Shown here: positions 1,292 through 62,273 of the stretch, piece by piece
Layout of the letters: every line of letters begins with the position of its first letter
Position numbering within the stretch: the first letter of the stretch is position 1
Assembly (NCBI RefSeq): GCF_004138135.1
Contig: NZ_RYFD01000019.1
Coordinates: forward strand, 1-64,000
Length of the DNA: 64,000 nt
From: Candidatus Oscillochloris fontis
Lineage (GTDB): Bacteria > Chloroflexota > Chloroflexia > Chloroflexales > Chloroflexaceae
Direction: 5' to 3'
Notes under the pieces: model-generated
The model's database searches: none
What the model was told of the DNA's origin: nothing
Seen by the model: the letters and a program-made list of their open reading frames with translations, nothing else
Position numbers and translations under genes: made by a program

Positions 1292-1464
1292 CGGGGGTTC
1301 GGGGGAGGCTTCGCCTCCCCCGAAGAAGTTTTTTTCTCGTATGTTGGCGGCGTAGCCGCCAACATACGAGAAAAAGCGGGTCTGGGGCGTAGCCCCAACT
1401 AAGTTTTAGGGCTGTAGCCCTAAACATCATGTCAATGGGCGTAGCAGCCCCCGAACCCCCACTG
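1292..1464. repeat. Composite palindromic element, family A copy 1
   Basis: The block is bounded by inverted ends, GGGGGTTCGGGGG on the left and CCCCCGAACCCCC on the right. Inside are several hairpins in series: 1301-1321 (9-bp stem, loop TTC), the main hairpin 1331-1375 (perfect 21-bp stem, loop GTA, inner stem GGCGGC/GCCGCC), 1384-1396 (GGGGC/GCCCC) and one near 1405-1424 (TTTAGGGC/GCCCTAAA). Similar blocks recur near 4.8, 8.1, 17.4, 24.3, 25.2, 50.8, 51.5, 53.9 and 61.7 kb. This copy occupies almost the whole divergent region between sppA and the dehydrogenase gene. Confidence 0.85.
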
Positions 1465-2611: not shown

Positions 2612-4787
2612 CCTGCGTAACCGCCACCCCCACATACCACGGCGCACGCGCCAGGTCGAGGAGATGGGTCGGGCTGCTGATCTGCACCGTCACAGCCTCG
2701 CCTCGCTCGCAACCGGGTAGATCGGCGAGGCTGACCTGTACTTCCTGTTCGCTGCCGTCCAGGACGATGCGCATGGGTGGTTGCGGGCTGCCCTGTACGT
2801 GTAGCTCCGCCACCTGCCCCGCAACTCCGCGTAGCTGGGCCACGGCGGCTCCGCAGGTGGTGCGCAGTCGCACCTCAGCTTTACCTAGCGTCCACGCCCC
2901 CCGTTCTAGATCGAAGCTCGCCGGGGCAAAGCCCCGGTAAAACCCCAACATCATCGGGTCGCCCGGAATGACTCGTTGGGGTGGCGCAGCTTCAACATGT
3001 TCCCATGCCCAGCGGTAGAGGTCGTTGCCTGCCCGCCAGTAGGCGTTGATCGCCGCCAACTCTGCTTCAGCCGCCTGGGTGTCGCCACGCTCGCCAGCCA
3101 GAAGGATGCGCATGGCGCGGGCGTATTGGCTGCGCCCTTCAAGATCGAGTGCGGCTTGGTAGTGTTGATCCGCAACATCCGCTTGGCCTTGGGCGAGTGC
3201 GAAATCGGCGCGGGCGATGCTGCGCAGTGGGTTACTCGGATCAACCTGTTGGGCGGCGATCAGCATGGCTGCGCTGGCCGCCCCATGTGCTTGGAGTGCG
3301 TAGCGTTCCGCCTTGATCCAGGTGATGTAGCGCGTACTGGCGATCAGGCCGAGGAAGAGGAGTATGCCGAGCAGCGCCGCGTACAAGCGCGGGTCACGCC
3401 AGCGCAGCCTGAGTTTGCGCCAGGTGTGCGCGAGTTGCATCAGGGCGTAGGCGGCAAAGGGAATGTAGACCGCCACCAGAGGTAGGCGCAGCCGGGGATG
3501 CCCGATACTGATCGCCACTAACCCCACCGTGATCGCCGCCCACAGCAGCGCCGGTAGGGCGCGGCGGTAGTTGGGGGCGAAGGCAATCCCCACCATTCCC
3601 GCCAGCATGATCATGATGTACTCGGCATCGGCGAGGAGGGTGAGCGGTAAGGAGAGTTCGCCTGCATTTTGCACCACGGGACTTCCATCCGAGGCGATGG
3701 CGATCAGATCGCCGGCCGCGTAGTTGCGGGTTTGCAGCATCAGCAGCGAGGCCACCTTGTAGCGCATGCGCACCACAAACGCGACCGGATCTTCCTGCAC
3801 ACGCTCCAGCGTCCAGCGGTTAGCCAGCGCTTGACGCTCGGCCAAGTTGGGAATAGCGAAGAGTTCGGCGTCGCGGGCGGCCTTCTCTTCGGGGTTGCGT
3901 ACTTGGCCAAACCAGACACTGATCCCCCCATTTGTGTCCACCAAGATCAGGTGATCATGGACGAGGTAGTTGCGTAGTGCCCACGGGCCGATCAGCAAGG
4001 TGGCTCCTAGAGCCAGGGCCAGCGCCAAACGCCAACGGTGCTTACTGGCTTGCAGTATGAGGAGTATCTGTTCATACTTGGGGTACAAGAAATCTTTTGT
4101 TGACGCAAAGGCACCAAGACGCAAAGGTTTTGTTGCCGGCTTTGCGCCTTGGCGTCTTGGCGTCAAAACATGAATGTTAGGAGAAGTGTGAACAGGTACT
4201 ATGAGGAAGAGTGCGGCCAGGGGAATGAAGAAGAGTCCGACCGCACGGGTGAGCGTGGCGGCGGCCAGCACGATCCCAGCGAAAAAGGCCGTGCGGGAAC
4301 GCCCCGTCTCACTCGCCTGATCTAGTTTGGTCAACCCCAGGATCATCAGGGTGACGAAGAGTGCCTCGGCGTACAGCGCACTGGCGAAGGTGGCCAAGGG
4401 AATGAAGATCGCCCCGATCATGCCCGCAACCAGCGCGACATCATGGCGACCAAAGATCTGCCGCGCAAACCCGCTGAAGGCGAGCGCACCCACGCCCATG
4501 AGGATAGCCTGAATCAGCATCGCGTTGCTGACATCCATCCCCGCGCAGGGCAGAATCAGCGCGAGTAGCACCGGGTAGCCAGGTGGCCGCAGCCACTTGC
4601 CATCATCGTGGTAGCCGCCTTGGAGTATATGGACGGCGGCGCGGTAGTACTCTTCGGCGTCGCCGGGGGGCACCACACCGCTCGCACTCCCCCACCACCA
4701 GAGGCTCACTCGCAGGATGATTGCCACTATGACAATCAGTACCAAACCCCAACGGTAGCGTTGGGAGTGGAACGGGATGTCTTGCAT
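2598..4787 (-). CDS. GT-C type membrane glycosyltransferase with C-terminal TPR-like/lumenal region
   Basis: A 729-residue polytopic membrane protein resembling the PMT/ArnT-like (GT39) glycosyltransferases, which transfer sugars from lipid carriers on the outer face of the membrane. After the first membrane helix comes an acidic loop (PPGDAEEYYRAAVHIL) typical of GT-C catalytic loops, then about ten hydrophobic helices. The C-terminal 230 residues are soluble, with an alanine-rich helical repeat region and a beta-rich tail. I start at the ATG at 4787 (MQDIPFHSQ); the frame upstream to 4949 is translated repeat. A palindromic GACGCAAAG repeat (4099-4168) lies in frame inside the gene, adding about 23 residues to a loop. 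The donor and acceptor are unknown. Confidence 0.8.
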   Translation of the reverse strand: MQDIPFHSQRYRWGLVLIVIVAIILRVSLWWWGSASGVVPPGDAEEYYRAAVHILQGGYHDDGKWLRPPGYPVLLALILPCAGMDVSNAMLIQAILMGVGALAFSGFARQIFGRHDVALVAGMIGAIFIPLATFASALYAEALFVTLMILGLTKLDQASETGRSRTAFFAGIVLAAATLTRAVGLFFIPLAALFLIVPVHTSPNIHVLTPRRQGAKPATKPLRLGAFASTKDFLYPKYEQILLILQASKHRWRLALALALGATLLIGPWALRNYLVHDHLILVDTNGGISVWFGQVRNPEEKAARDAELFAIPNLAERQALANRWTLERVQEDPVAFVVRMRYKVASLLMLQTRNYAAGDLIAIASDGSPVVQNAGELSLPLTLLADAEYIMIMLAGMVGIAFAPNYRRALPALLWAAITVGLVAISIGHPRLRLPLVAVYIPFAAYALMQLAHTWRKLRLRWRDPRLYAALLGILLFLGLIASTRYITWIKAERYALQAHGAASAAMLIAAQQVDPSNPLRSIARADFALAQGQADVADQHYQAALDLEGRSQYARAMRILLAGERGDTQAAEAELAAINAYWRAGNDLYRWAWEHVEAAPPQRVIPGDPMMLGFYRGFAPASFDLERGAWTLGKAEVRLRTTCGAAVAQLRGVAGQVAELHVQGSPQPPMRIVLDGSEQEVQVSLADLPGCERGEAVTVQISSPTHLLDLARAPWYVGVAVTQVETR
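4099..4168. repeat. GACGCAAAG inverted repeat, family C copy 1 (inside a gene)
   Basis: Left arm TTGACGCAAAGGCACC, with AGACGCAAAGG following; right arm CTTGGCGTCTTGGCGTCAA. The same family occurs intergenically at 34556-34626 and twice at 36687-36935. This copy lies within the GT-C gene without breaking its frame. Confidence 0.85.
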
Positions 4788-4802: not shown

Positions 4803-4937
4803 TTTTTGGTCTCTGTTGGCGGCGAAGCCGCCAACAGAGACCAAAAAATATCTTTGGGGGCGGCTTTGCCCATAGACATGAACTTTAGGGCTACCGCCCG
4901 AAAAACCATGCTTGAGGCTGCGCCCCAAATCCCCACC
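4803..4937. repeat. Composite palindromic element, family A copy 2
   Basis: The main hairpin 4803-4847 has a perfect 21-bp stem, loop GAA and the GGCGGC/GCCGCC core; its outer arm (GGTCTCTGTT) is unrelated to that of copy 1. Satellite hairpins GGGGGCGGC..GCCC, TTTAGGGC and GGGGC-type follow towards 4930. It lies upstream of the GT-C gene, between it and secA, both on the minus strand. Confidence 0.85.

Positions 4938-4958: not shown

Positions 4959-4962
<4 letters not shown>
4938..4962. repeat. Short GTAGGGGCG palindrome carrying the secA stop codon
   Basis: GGGGCGCGT and ACGCGCCCC are paired around a CACG centre. Read on the minus strand it begins GTAGGGGCG, and the TAG is the stop codon of secA. 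A near-identical palindrome at 50952-50978 contains another gene's stop codon. Confidence 0.8.
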
Positions 4963-7985
<3,023 letters not shown>

Positions 7986-8039
7986 GGCTCTATTCTTCTC
8001 CGTAAGCATCTATTGGCAAAAAACTGCACACTGGAGCGC

Positions 8040-8069: not shown

Positions 8070-8110
8070 CATCATCTGCGGTGGTAACCAGGGCATGTGC
8101 AAAGTCACCT

Positions 8111-8213
8111 CCGGTGGGGGTTTGGGGGCGGCGAAGCCGCCCCCGCAGAATATTTTTGTGGTGTTTTGGCGGCGAAGCCGCCAAAACACCACAAAAATAT
8201 CTTACTCTCGGCG
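8111..8213. repeat. Composite palindromic element, family A copy 3
   Basis: Hairpin 8125-8145 (GGGGGCGGC, loop GAA, GCCGCCCCC) and main hairpin 8150-8200 with a perfect 24-bp stem, loop GAA and outer arm TTGTGGTGTTTT. It lies between the stop of the MGDG-type glycosyltransferase and the secA promoter. The rest of the 275-bp gap shows nothing else. Confidence 0.85.
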
Positions 8214-17410: not shown

Positions 17411-17463
17411 GCGTATTGGGGTGGTGTTTGGCGGCGCAGCCGCCAAACACCACCCCAATACGC
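17411..17463. repeat. Palindromic element, family A copy 4
   Basis: A perfect 25-bp stem with loop GCA, the longest of the family. The outer arm is GCGTATTGGGGTGGTGTTT on the GGCGGC core. It separates the two halves of the duplicated secreted-protein unit. Confidence 0.85.
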
Positions 17464-24249: not shown

Positions 24250-24283
24250 GATTTGTTCTTTGAGCTTCCGGGAAGCTCGTTTT

Positions 24284-24417
24284 GGGGCTACGCCCCAAAC
24301 CCATGGTTTTGCTGGTGTGGTTGGCCGCTTTGCGGCCAACCACACCAGCAAAATATGTTTTCATGGGGGCATGCGGCCCCCATACCCCTGCTAGGGGCGC
24401 ATCGCGATGCGCCCCTA
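24284..24417. repeat. Palindromic element, family A copy 5, with a GGGGCGCAT palindrome
   Basis: The main hairpin 24307-24353 has a perfect 22-bp stem with loop TTT and core GGCCGC/GCGGCC. Its arm GCTGGTGTGGTT is shared with copy 7 (50842-50890), which has loop AAA, so the two are the same element in opposite orientation. A satellite GGGGC/GCCCC hairpin lies at 24286-24298. A GGGGCGCATC/GATGCGCCCC palindrome ends at 24417, five bases from the next gene's stop codon. Confidence 0.8.
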
Positions 24418-25142: not shown

Positions 25143-25283
25143 CCACCTTCGGTGGGGGTTCTGGGGCGGCGAAGCCTCCCCCGAACCCCCACCGGGAGGC
25201 TTACGTTCATGTCAATGAGCGGCTTGCCGCCCCCGAAGATCTTTTTGGTATTGTTTGGTGGCGCAGCCACTAAACAATACCAA
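25143..25283. repeat. Composite palindromic element, family A copy 6
   Basis: GGTGGGGGTTC and CCCCCGAACCCCCACC ends are present on the left side. The main hairpin 25244-25283 has a 19-bp stem with one G/T mismatch (a wobble pair in RNA), loop GCA and core GGTGGC. It fills the divergent space between the histidine phosphatase and dgkA. A TATAAT at 25303-25308 just beyond it may be the dgkA -10 box. Confidence 0.75.
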
Positions 25284-29116: not shown

Positions 29117-29185
29117 TCCGCAGATTACGCAGATTACGCAGATTATTCCTCTATAATAATCTGCGTAATCTGCGTAATCTGCGGA
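29117..29185. repeat. GATTACGCA inverted repeat, family B copy 1
   Basis: Two perfectly complementary 31-bp arms (29117-29147 and 29155-29185) around a 7-base loop. Each arm is made of GATTACGCA 9-mers capped by TCCGCA. It ends 28 bp before the NACHT gene's ATG, so it lies in the 5' leader or promoter of that gene. Confidence 0.9.
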
Positions 29186-50767: not shown

Positions 50768-50841
50768 GGTGCTCCATCCTTAGATTTGCATGAACAGGCG
50801 GCTTGCCGCACTGGAGTTTGGGGCTATGTCCCAAACCCATG

Positions 50842-50978
50842 GTTGTGCTGGTGTGGTTGGCCGCAAAGCGGCCAACCACACCAGCACAACCCTCTTTTTC
50901 GTGGGGATTTGCGGCCCCCACACCCCCGCTACGGGCGTAGCTTGCGGTGTATAGGGGCGCGTCACGACGCGCCCCTAC
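50842..50978. repeat. Palindromic element, family A copy 7, with a TAGGGGCGCGTC palindrome
   Basis: The main hairpin 50842-50890 has a perfect 23-bp stem, loop AAA and core GGCCGC. The arm GCTGGTGTGGTT is the same as in copy 5, with one compensated base pair change outside it. The second palindrome (50952-50977, 12-bp arms) ends in CTA, which is the stop codon of the next minus-strand gene. Confidence 0.85.
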
Positions 50979-53856: not shown

Positions 53857-53964
53857 GGTGTGGCGGCGTAGCCGCCACACCGTTTTTGTTGTTTTTTGGC
53901 GGCGTAGCCGCCAAAAAACAACAAAAAAAGATCTTCGGGGGCGGCATAGCCGCCCCCGAACCCC
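53857..53964. repeat. Composite palindromic element, family A copy 8
   Basis: Two hairpins lie side by side: 53857-53881 (11-bp stem GGTGTGGCGGC, loop GTA) and 53883-53927 (21-bp perfect stem, arm TTGTTGTTTTTT, loop GTA). GGGGGCGGC..GCCGCCCCC and CCCCCGAACCCCCAC follow, with the end directly beside the receiver gene's stop codon. This is the only copy between convergent genes. Confidence 0.85.
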
Positions 53965-59162: not shown

Positions 59163-59263
59163 GTGTCCGCAGAGGTTTGTGTCCGCAGAGGTTTGTGTCC
59201 GCAGATTACGCAGATTACGCAGATTATTATAGAAAAAATAATCTGCGTAATCTGCGGATAATA
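59163..59263. repeat. GATTACGCA repeats, family B copy 4
   Basis: Three copies of TTGTGTCCGCAGA come first, then GATTACGCA 9-mers and the complementary arm AATAATCTGCGTAATCTGCG. It begins 9 bp after the CHAT stop codon and stops just before the acyltransferase gene's end. Confidence 0.9.
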
Positions 59264-61599: not shown

Positions 61600-61755
61600 G
61601 CCAATTGAATTTGAGGGCTACCGCCCTCAAACCCACGCTTGGGGCTGCGCCCCAAATCTGATTTTTTCGCATAATTGGCGGCTTCGCCGCCAATTATGCG
61701 AAAAAAAGTTCTTCGGAGGAGGCTTCGCCTTCCCCGAACCCCACCAGAGGTGGAG
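61600..61755. repeat. Composite palindromic element, family A copy 9
   Basis: Satellites TTGAGGGC/GCCCTCAA and TTGGGGC/GCCCCAA, the main hairpin 61662-61706 (perfect 21-bp stem, arm CGCATAATT, loop TTC), and then an AGGAGGCTTCGCCTTCC satellite with the end CCCCGAACCCCAC. It fills the divergent gap between dusB and rpmG. Confidence 0.85.
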
Positions 61756-62031: not shown

Positions 62032-62090
62032 GGTACCAAGAGAACGCGGCGGCTCGGAATTGTTCCGAGCCGCCGCGTTCTCTTGGTACC
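62032..62090. terminator. Perfect 28-bp hairpin after rpmG
   Basis: Two 28-base complementary arms (GGTACCAAGAGAACGCGG.. and complement) around TTG, 10 bp beyond the rpmG stop. No T-run follows, so it is not a canonical intrinsic terminator. It could stop polymerase or protect the mRNA end. Confidence 0.6.
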
Positions 62091-62114: not shown

Positions 62115-62273
62115 AGATTTTAGCCATCCGGCCCTCACCCCCCTGCCCCCTCTCCCGCACGCGGGAGAGGGGGTATACCATTCCTGATGGTGCTGCACAC
62201 GCGAAGCGTGTGCAGCACCATCAGGAATTTTTCGCCCCCTCCCCTGAAAGGGGAGGGGGTAGGGGGGAGGGGT
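62115..62273. repeat. REP-like palindromes at the end of the AAA/TPR gene
   Basis: Three hairpins: CCCTCTCCCGCACGCGGGAGAGG (62138-62170), GTGCTGCACACGC with its complement (62189-62217), and CCCCTCCCCTGAAAGGGGAGGGG (62233-62256). The last one is translated as the C-terminal tail of the AAA/TPR protein. Confidence 0.8.

Follow-up and report, generated by a model that had tools for sequence, protein, structure and literature searches.

How can a family of hairpins keep its two arms complementary while the sequence of those arms differs from copy to copy? This question is raised by a stretch of 64,000 nucleotides from Candidatus Oscillochloris fontis (hereafter the window), in which at least nine palindromes had been noticed that share an inner core and differ in their outer arms. 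The original prediction offered either strong selection on structure or a copying mechanism that rewrites one arm from the other, and regarded the palindromes as a rapidly diversifying repeat of a type not recognized. Our analysis indicated that the copying mechanism, in the form of replication template switching that copies arm onto arm within hairpins, many of them carried by a MITE, is quite probably the best explanation of the family.

Palindromes in the window

All nine palindromes were found in place, with arms of 18 to 25 bp, loops of 3 nt, and the core variants GGCGGC/GCCGCC, GGCCGC/GCGGCC, and GGTGGC/GCCACT. An inverted-repeat search of the window returned eight of them as 100% complementary, with 21- to 25-bp arms and 3-nt loops; the ninth, at 25244–25283, is fully paired but for a single G·T, in line with the claim that every copy is perfect or has one wobble mismatch. 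On the plus strand, this main hairpin (hpB) occupies positions 1331–1375 (21-bp perfect arms, GTA loop on the same strand), 4803–4847 (21-bp perfect arms, GAA loop), 8150–8200 (24-bp perfect arms, GAA loop), 17411–17463 (25-bp perfect arms, GCA loop), 25244–25283 (GGTGGC/GCCACT core, GCA loop), 50841–50891 (GGCCGC core, 24-bp perfect arms, AAA loop), and 53883–53927 (21-bp perfect arms, GTA loop). On the minus strand, it occupies 24307–24353 (GGCCGC core, 22-bp perfect arms, AAA loop on that strand) and 61662–61706 (21-bp perfect arms, GAA loop on that strand). The fifth and seventh copies, at 24307 and 50841, have GCTGGTGTGGTT in common, and beyond it one has T:A where the other has G:C, which is the shared arm and two-sided pair change that had been claimed for them.

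These nine copies are part of a family of more than 200. Across the genome (4.46 Mb), the exact core TTGGCGGCNNNGCCGCCAA was counted 227 times, rather than a handful of times, and its reversed control not once. In related genomes the same core is present in 80 copies (G002), 25 copies (G003), and 24 copies (G005), and two members of another genus of the same family carry 201 and 260 copies. The arm analyses of the genome under study (G000) described below cover 860 kb. For orthologous sites, we used two related species, G003 and G005; a contig search with the protein encoded at 4959–8009 returned distant relatives only (45–68% identity), which are unsuitable for orthologous hairpins. The named relatives of this protein placed the genome under study in Roseiflexaceae (Chloroflexi).

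The window holds other repeats as well. Another palindromic family, made of CGCAGATTA units, lies at 29117–29185 and 59209–59256, with perfect arms of 31 and 20 bp, respectively. A perfect palindrome with 28-bp arms (62032–62090) is found near a 39-bp quasi-palindrome that is 85% complementary (62164–62244), and the two may be different stages of one process. Within 4064–4213, about 135 bp recur in dozens of copies in the genome at 84–89% identity, some of them near one another, and gave no sign of a relation to the palindromes.

Anatomy of the element

A larger dispersed element contains three nested hairpins, hpA, hpB, and hpC, with the main hairpin in the middle position. The layout of hpA is GGGGGCGGC-NNN-GCCGCCCCC, that of hpB is a T-tract, a variable arm, TTGGCGGC-NNN-GCCGCCAA, the complementary arm, and an A-tract, and that of hpC is TTGGGGC-NNN-GCCCCAA. 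At the first copy in the window, the entire multi-hairpin element spans 1290–1473 on the plus strand, with other copies about 84–87% identical, and hpB adjoins an hpA (TTCGGGGGAGGC-TTC, 1298–1324, minus strand, 12-bp arms) and an hpC (TGGGGC-GTA-GCCCCA, 1383–1397, plus strand). Elsewhere, hpA is represented at 8124–8144 (GGGGGCGGC-GAA, plus strand, 9-bp arms, in the element holding the hpB at 8150) and at 53934–53960 (TTCGGGGGCGGC-ATA, plus strand, 12-bp arms), the latter near the hpB at 53883, which has a second short hairpin immediately upstream (GGTGTGGCGGC-GTA, 53857–53881, plus strand). An hpC (TTGGGGC-TGC, 7-bp arms) lies at 61639–61655 on the minus strand, and an hpC-type hairpin (TTTGGGGC-TAC, no strand assigned) adjoins the hpB variant 24307 at 24281–24299.

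Complete copies are about 151 bp long and have the 18-bp terminal inverted repeat (TIR) CAGGGCATGTGCAAAGTC at both ends, the outer ends being 151 to 153 bp apart in most TIR pairs. Target duplications of 10 bp flank at least nine copies, for example GTAGTGTAAC (L120), GCCGTATGAG (L125), GGGGTAACTC (L165), and CCATACCCTA (L168). The TIRs, the length, and the target duplications together identify the complete copies as MITEs, and the duplications show that the MITE is or was mobile. Many palindrome copies sit within this MITE. Within the window, an exact TIR survives in the 8150 copy alone, at one end (8089–8106, plus strand), the other end being absent; each of the remaining copies is either truncated or of a related element type that shares the core. 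Thus, the repeat that had not been recognized resolves into the nested hairpins of a MITE family. The best explanation is that the hairpins formed by these palindromes belong to small mobile elements that are non-autonomous, of which the MITE of about 151 bp is the best defined.

No autonomous relative with the same ends was found among the TIR pairs in 860 kb of this draft genome. Because of the 10-bp duplication, ISAs1 was considered as the source of the MITE and was rejected, as the draft genome contains no ISAs1-type transposase. Compared to bacterial MITEs such as those of DDE-type insertion sequences, the element is similarly short, non-coding, bounded by TIRs and target duplications, and present in many copies, but differs in its three near-perfect nested hairpins and in having no autonomous parent found in this genome.

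Two kinds of rearranged copies were also observed. At L162:5930–6005, a short TIR element with the duplication TTTTTGGTGC lies within the arm of another hpB copy. On L122, L165, L169, and L175, hybrid hairpins combine the left arm of hpB with a right arm that comes from hpA or a different hairpin, and they look as if the stretch between two equal cores had been deleted.

By inspection, hpB reads as a T-tract, a stem, and an A-tract on both strands, and on this ground it was rejected as an intrinsic terminator. Its common 3′ flanks, also by inspection, are TTGGGG, GCGGG, or GATCTTCGG, and matches of a terminator scanner at hpB depend on Ts inside or beyond the element. Rfam models detected only a tRNA in the window and no family for the palindromes.

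Concerted change of the two arms

Paired and unpaired changes were compared in 76 copies from the 860 kb, comprising 1368 pair cells. Relative to the commonest pair, 277 cells differ on both sides, and eight are mispaired (GT 2, TG 2, AC 2, TT 1, and AA 1). This spectrum bears no G·U signature of RNA selection, and a route through G·U intermediates was rejected.

The pairing does not stem from having searched for palindromes, since it was also found by seeding on one arm or on the flanks and by comparison with shuffles. One-arm seeding with the T-tract and left arm, a count in which a palindrome may appear twice, once per strand, gave 18 of 18 pairs at 92 of 102 sites, with a bimodal distribution and the rest mostly truncated hybrids; flank seeding gave 15 of 15 pairs at 26 of 31 sites. 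For 51 distinct arm pairs, pairing holds in 99.6% of cells, compared with 72% after shuffling. Two-sided changes affect 204 cells, whereas shuffles give 54, and none of 500 shuffles reached the observed number. For these 51 sequences the covariation score is 0.631, compared with 0.121 after shuffling; with the partner shifted along, it does not exceed 0.18.

Similar results were obtained from pairs of elements. Those with flanks at least 85% identical carry on average 1.94 two-sided arm changes and no broken pairs, and copies whose flanks have diverged by 10–30% still have perfect arms. The arms diverge at about the rate of the flanks. Hence they are not hypervariable, as the description "rapidly diversifying" would have it; what sets them apart is that the change is joint. 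The GGCGGC core and the loop-proximal TT are nearly invariant, the middle of the arm varies, and the 5′ arm of hpB is G- and T-rich. A conserved core with a variable mid-arm is not predicted by neutral homogenization alone.

Orthologous hairpins in two related species

The genomes of G003 and G005 align over 472 kb at 86% identity and provided a small set of 23 clean gapless orthologous hairpin pairs, hairpins inside genes included. At single-copy sites, most arms differ only by changes on both sides, and among the intergenic hairpins the arms mostly differ by compensated pairs: ten at C95:240415, four at C95:57063 (where the loop also changes from GAA to TTC), three at C106:100385, two at C95:243848 (loop TTT to AAA), and one at C128:132146. 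In another group, the loop is inverted with little or no change around it. The arms are unchanged at C128:2133, where the loop is the exact reverse complement, and at C94:74457, where AGAT has become ATCT; at C95:37839, they are nearly unchanged, with one closing mismatch, and the loop is again inverted. Compensated pairs thus prevail among the intergenic hairpins over the uncorrelated substitutions expected of ordinary divergence. At one site, C128:31480, six pairs are broken and two are compensated, which speaks against a universal rule. Changes of the ordinary one-sided kind, with the loop not inverted, were seen in several short hairpins that are presumably intragenic.

Most of the orthologous hairpins checked are single-copy within the sampled sequence, which makes overwriting by another copy unlikely there. 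The hairpin at C95:57063 is of an arm type that is multi-copy in G003, and it could have been overwritten by another copy.

The contigs of these two species (L201–L280) also contain a second hairpin family with the core GCCAGC-GNA-GCTGGC and largely unrelated perfect arms of 24 to 26 bp. Some sites at the same place in G003 and G005 hold entirely different perfect hairpins.

Loop inversion and orientation relative to strand skew

The loops fall into classes that are mirror images of each other, with few intermediates. Inside the elements, loops of the GNA (or ANA) type are found in either orientation (15/16 for hpA, 27/13 for hpB, and 17/5 for hpC), and the loop orientations of hairpins sharing one element show no evident coupling. 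On this lack of coupling, and on the finding that the orientation of insertion does not fix the loop, inversion of the whole element was rejected as the source of the flips. Relative to the element, the loops are 27 forward and 6 reverse in one insertion direction and 6 forward and 16 reverse in the other (p = 7.5e-5). Opposite insertions carry opposite element-relative loops, which suggests that the loop is adjusted once the element has inserted.

Along contigs, the strand that carries GNA tends to be a common one: 77 of 93 hairpins on 16 contigs agree with the majority, a value not reached in any of 20,000 random draws. In G000, the GNA loop lies on the leading-type strand for 56 of 71 hairpins (Fisher 1.2e-6), the leading strand being predicted from the sign of GC minus AT skew, which is weak on the contigs. 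At the level of contigs, no assignment of signs could give a higher agreement, and 4 of 512 assignments equal it. Relative to the transcription of flanking genes, the loops show no preference (13 versus 19), and orientation by transcription was rejected. The association with skew is not seen in G003 and G005, whose skews are weak, and co-orientation of loops along contigs is marginal in G016; the link is clear only in G000.

A GNA triloop is expected to cap a DNA hairpin very stably. When closed by a C-G pair, it matches the DNA mini-hairpin of the GCGAAGC type, which is unusually stable. We infer that this stability sets the preferred orientation of the loop; a DNA energy model scores GNA and TNC loops as equally stable, and its parameters thus do not show such a difference. 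On balance, we lean toward the view that the loops are indicators of replication direction, which interstrand switching flips until their orientation settles by the leading strand, irrespective of how the element was inserted. If so, loop orientation along the genome would mark replichores and serve as a natural gauge of the rate of template switching.

Proposed mechanism and alternatives

Template switching between the arms of an inverted repeat accounts for the concerted arms, the loop inversions, the independence of neighboring hairpins, and the association with skew. After insertion, each hairpin would evolve in concert, a mutation in one arm leading to the rewriting of the other during replication. 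In the fold-back (intrastrand) form, a stalled nascent strand may pair with itself through the GC core and copy the arm that it has just made, which would repair mismatches. In the interstrand form, the polymerase would cross to the other strand within the palindrome and then return, leaving the 3-nt loop inverted. Such flips would be frequent enough for the loops to have settled in a preferred orientation relative to replication, with GNA mostly on the G/T-rich, leading-type strand. Polymerase switching itself, the identity of the strand that folds, and the reason for the GNA preference there are what we infer from these patterns. No host function is needed. SbcD is present in the genome, and loss of that palindrome nuclease subunit is therefore not the reason why the hairpins persist.

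A functional RNA or DNA structure is usually argued from compensated substitutions, and strong selection for a perfect hairpin, acting through ordinary compensatory mutations, would agree with near-perfect pairing across many pair types, a conserved core, and the presence in related species of hairpins of different sequence at the same intergenic sites. We consider this explanation unlikely, since it predicts neither exact inversion of a loop between unchanged arms, nor mirror-image loop classes with few intermediates, nor loops that track skew and not transcription; in addition, G·U intermediates are almost absent, and the divergence of the arms is already about equal to that of the flanks. 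A small probability is also assigned to the repair of mismatches or heteroduplexes in extruded cruciforms or hairpins, which could copy arm to arm without a switching polymerase. It would explain arm homogenization equally well, and the arm data do not separate it from template switching; the loops do, because such repair does not by itself invert them, and the inversions and their link to the replication strand would require another process.

Young insertions from many perfect master copies, or conversion by other copies, would make perfection a mark of recency. The target duplications of a MITE that is or was mobile, and the multi-copy arm type at C95:57063, are compatible with such a history, which is nonetheless quite improbable: arms are perfect where flanks are 10–30% diverged, single-copy hairpins show the same pattern, and loop orientation is not fixed by the orientation of insertion. 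The least probable account, to which we give hardly any weight, takes the palindromes for REP-like elements that owe their form to the action of a RAYT transposase on single-stranded hairpins. One RAYT-like Y1 transposase gene does exist (L139:1174–1695, 173 aa), with a score of 61.8 bits against NF047646, below the cut-off of 80, and these palindromes do not flank it. Furthermore, the family lacks a GTAG foot, its TIRs and 10-bp duplications are typical of DDE transposition, and no Y1 gene was found in G003, although the hairpins there behave alike. A REP of the GTAG/CGTC type was rejected directly, as the feet are TTTTT/AAAAA plus variable sequence and GTAG appears only where the loop is GTA. 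Collectively, these comparisons favor template switching, which is supported by the compensated orthologous arms, exact loop inversions, uncoupled loops, and skew-following orientation. Since a mutational process explains the near-perfect compensation better, covariation alone can mislead in genomes such as this one, and loop inversion is a tell-tale of the mutational origin of covariation.

Comparison with known systems

REP and REPIN sequences (PMC3733652) are likewise high-copy intergenic palindromes, and the present family differs from them in having no GTAG/CGTC foot and no REP-flanked RAYT, and in possessing TIRs, target duplications, and near-perfect arms. For the proposed mechanism, homogenization of inverted-repeat arms by template switching, there are precedents in E. 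coli (PMC6357072) and yeast (PMC8604942). What seems to be new is the occurrence, throughout a genome, of a hairpin family whose loop flips are at equilibrium and whose loops are oriented by replication. In E. coli, studies of quasipalindromes with the QP5 and QP6 reporters showed strand-biased template switching (PMC6357072). There too, replication copies arm onto arm and the leading or lagging strand matters, but those sites are single engineered ones or hotspots, whereas here a natural family of more than 200 copies displays a standing loop orientation. With its hundreds of replicate sites in each genome, the family can serve as a natural system in which to measure bacterial template switching and its strand preference.

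Template switching has also been described as maintaining RNA hairpins, with compensated stems attributed to one replication event instead of two mutations and with loop inversion named as the strongest footprint (PMC8794818). In rRNA such inversions were very rare because the loops are constrained (PMC8794818), whereas they are common in the present family, which consists of DNA that has no known RNA role. According to a survey of inverted repeats in bacteria, spacers gather more variants than expected and arms are conserved (PMC13155455); spacer inversion of the kind described here would be a direct and testable cause of that excess. The closest parallel comes from Saccharomyces cerevisiae, in which homogenization of inverted-repeat arms and spacer inversion both occur (PMC8604942), including 3-nt spacers changed from gaa to ttc with the arms unchanged. 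In yeast these are rare events in genes, whereas in Candidatus Oscillochloris fontis the loops seem to have reached equilibrium throughout the genome of a bacterium and to be aligned with its strand skew.
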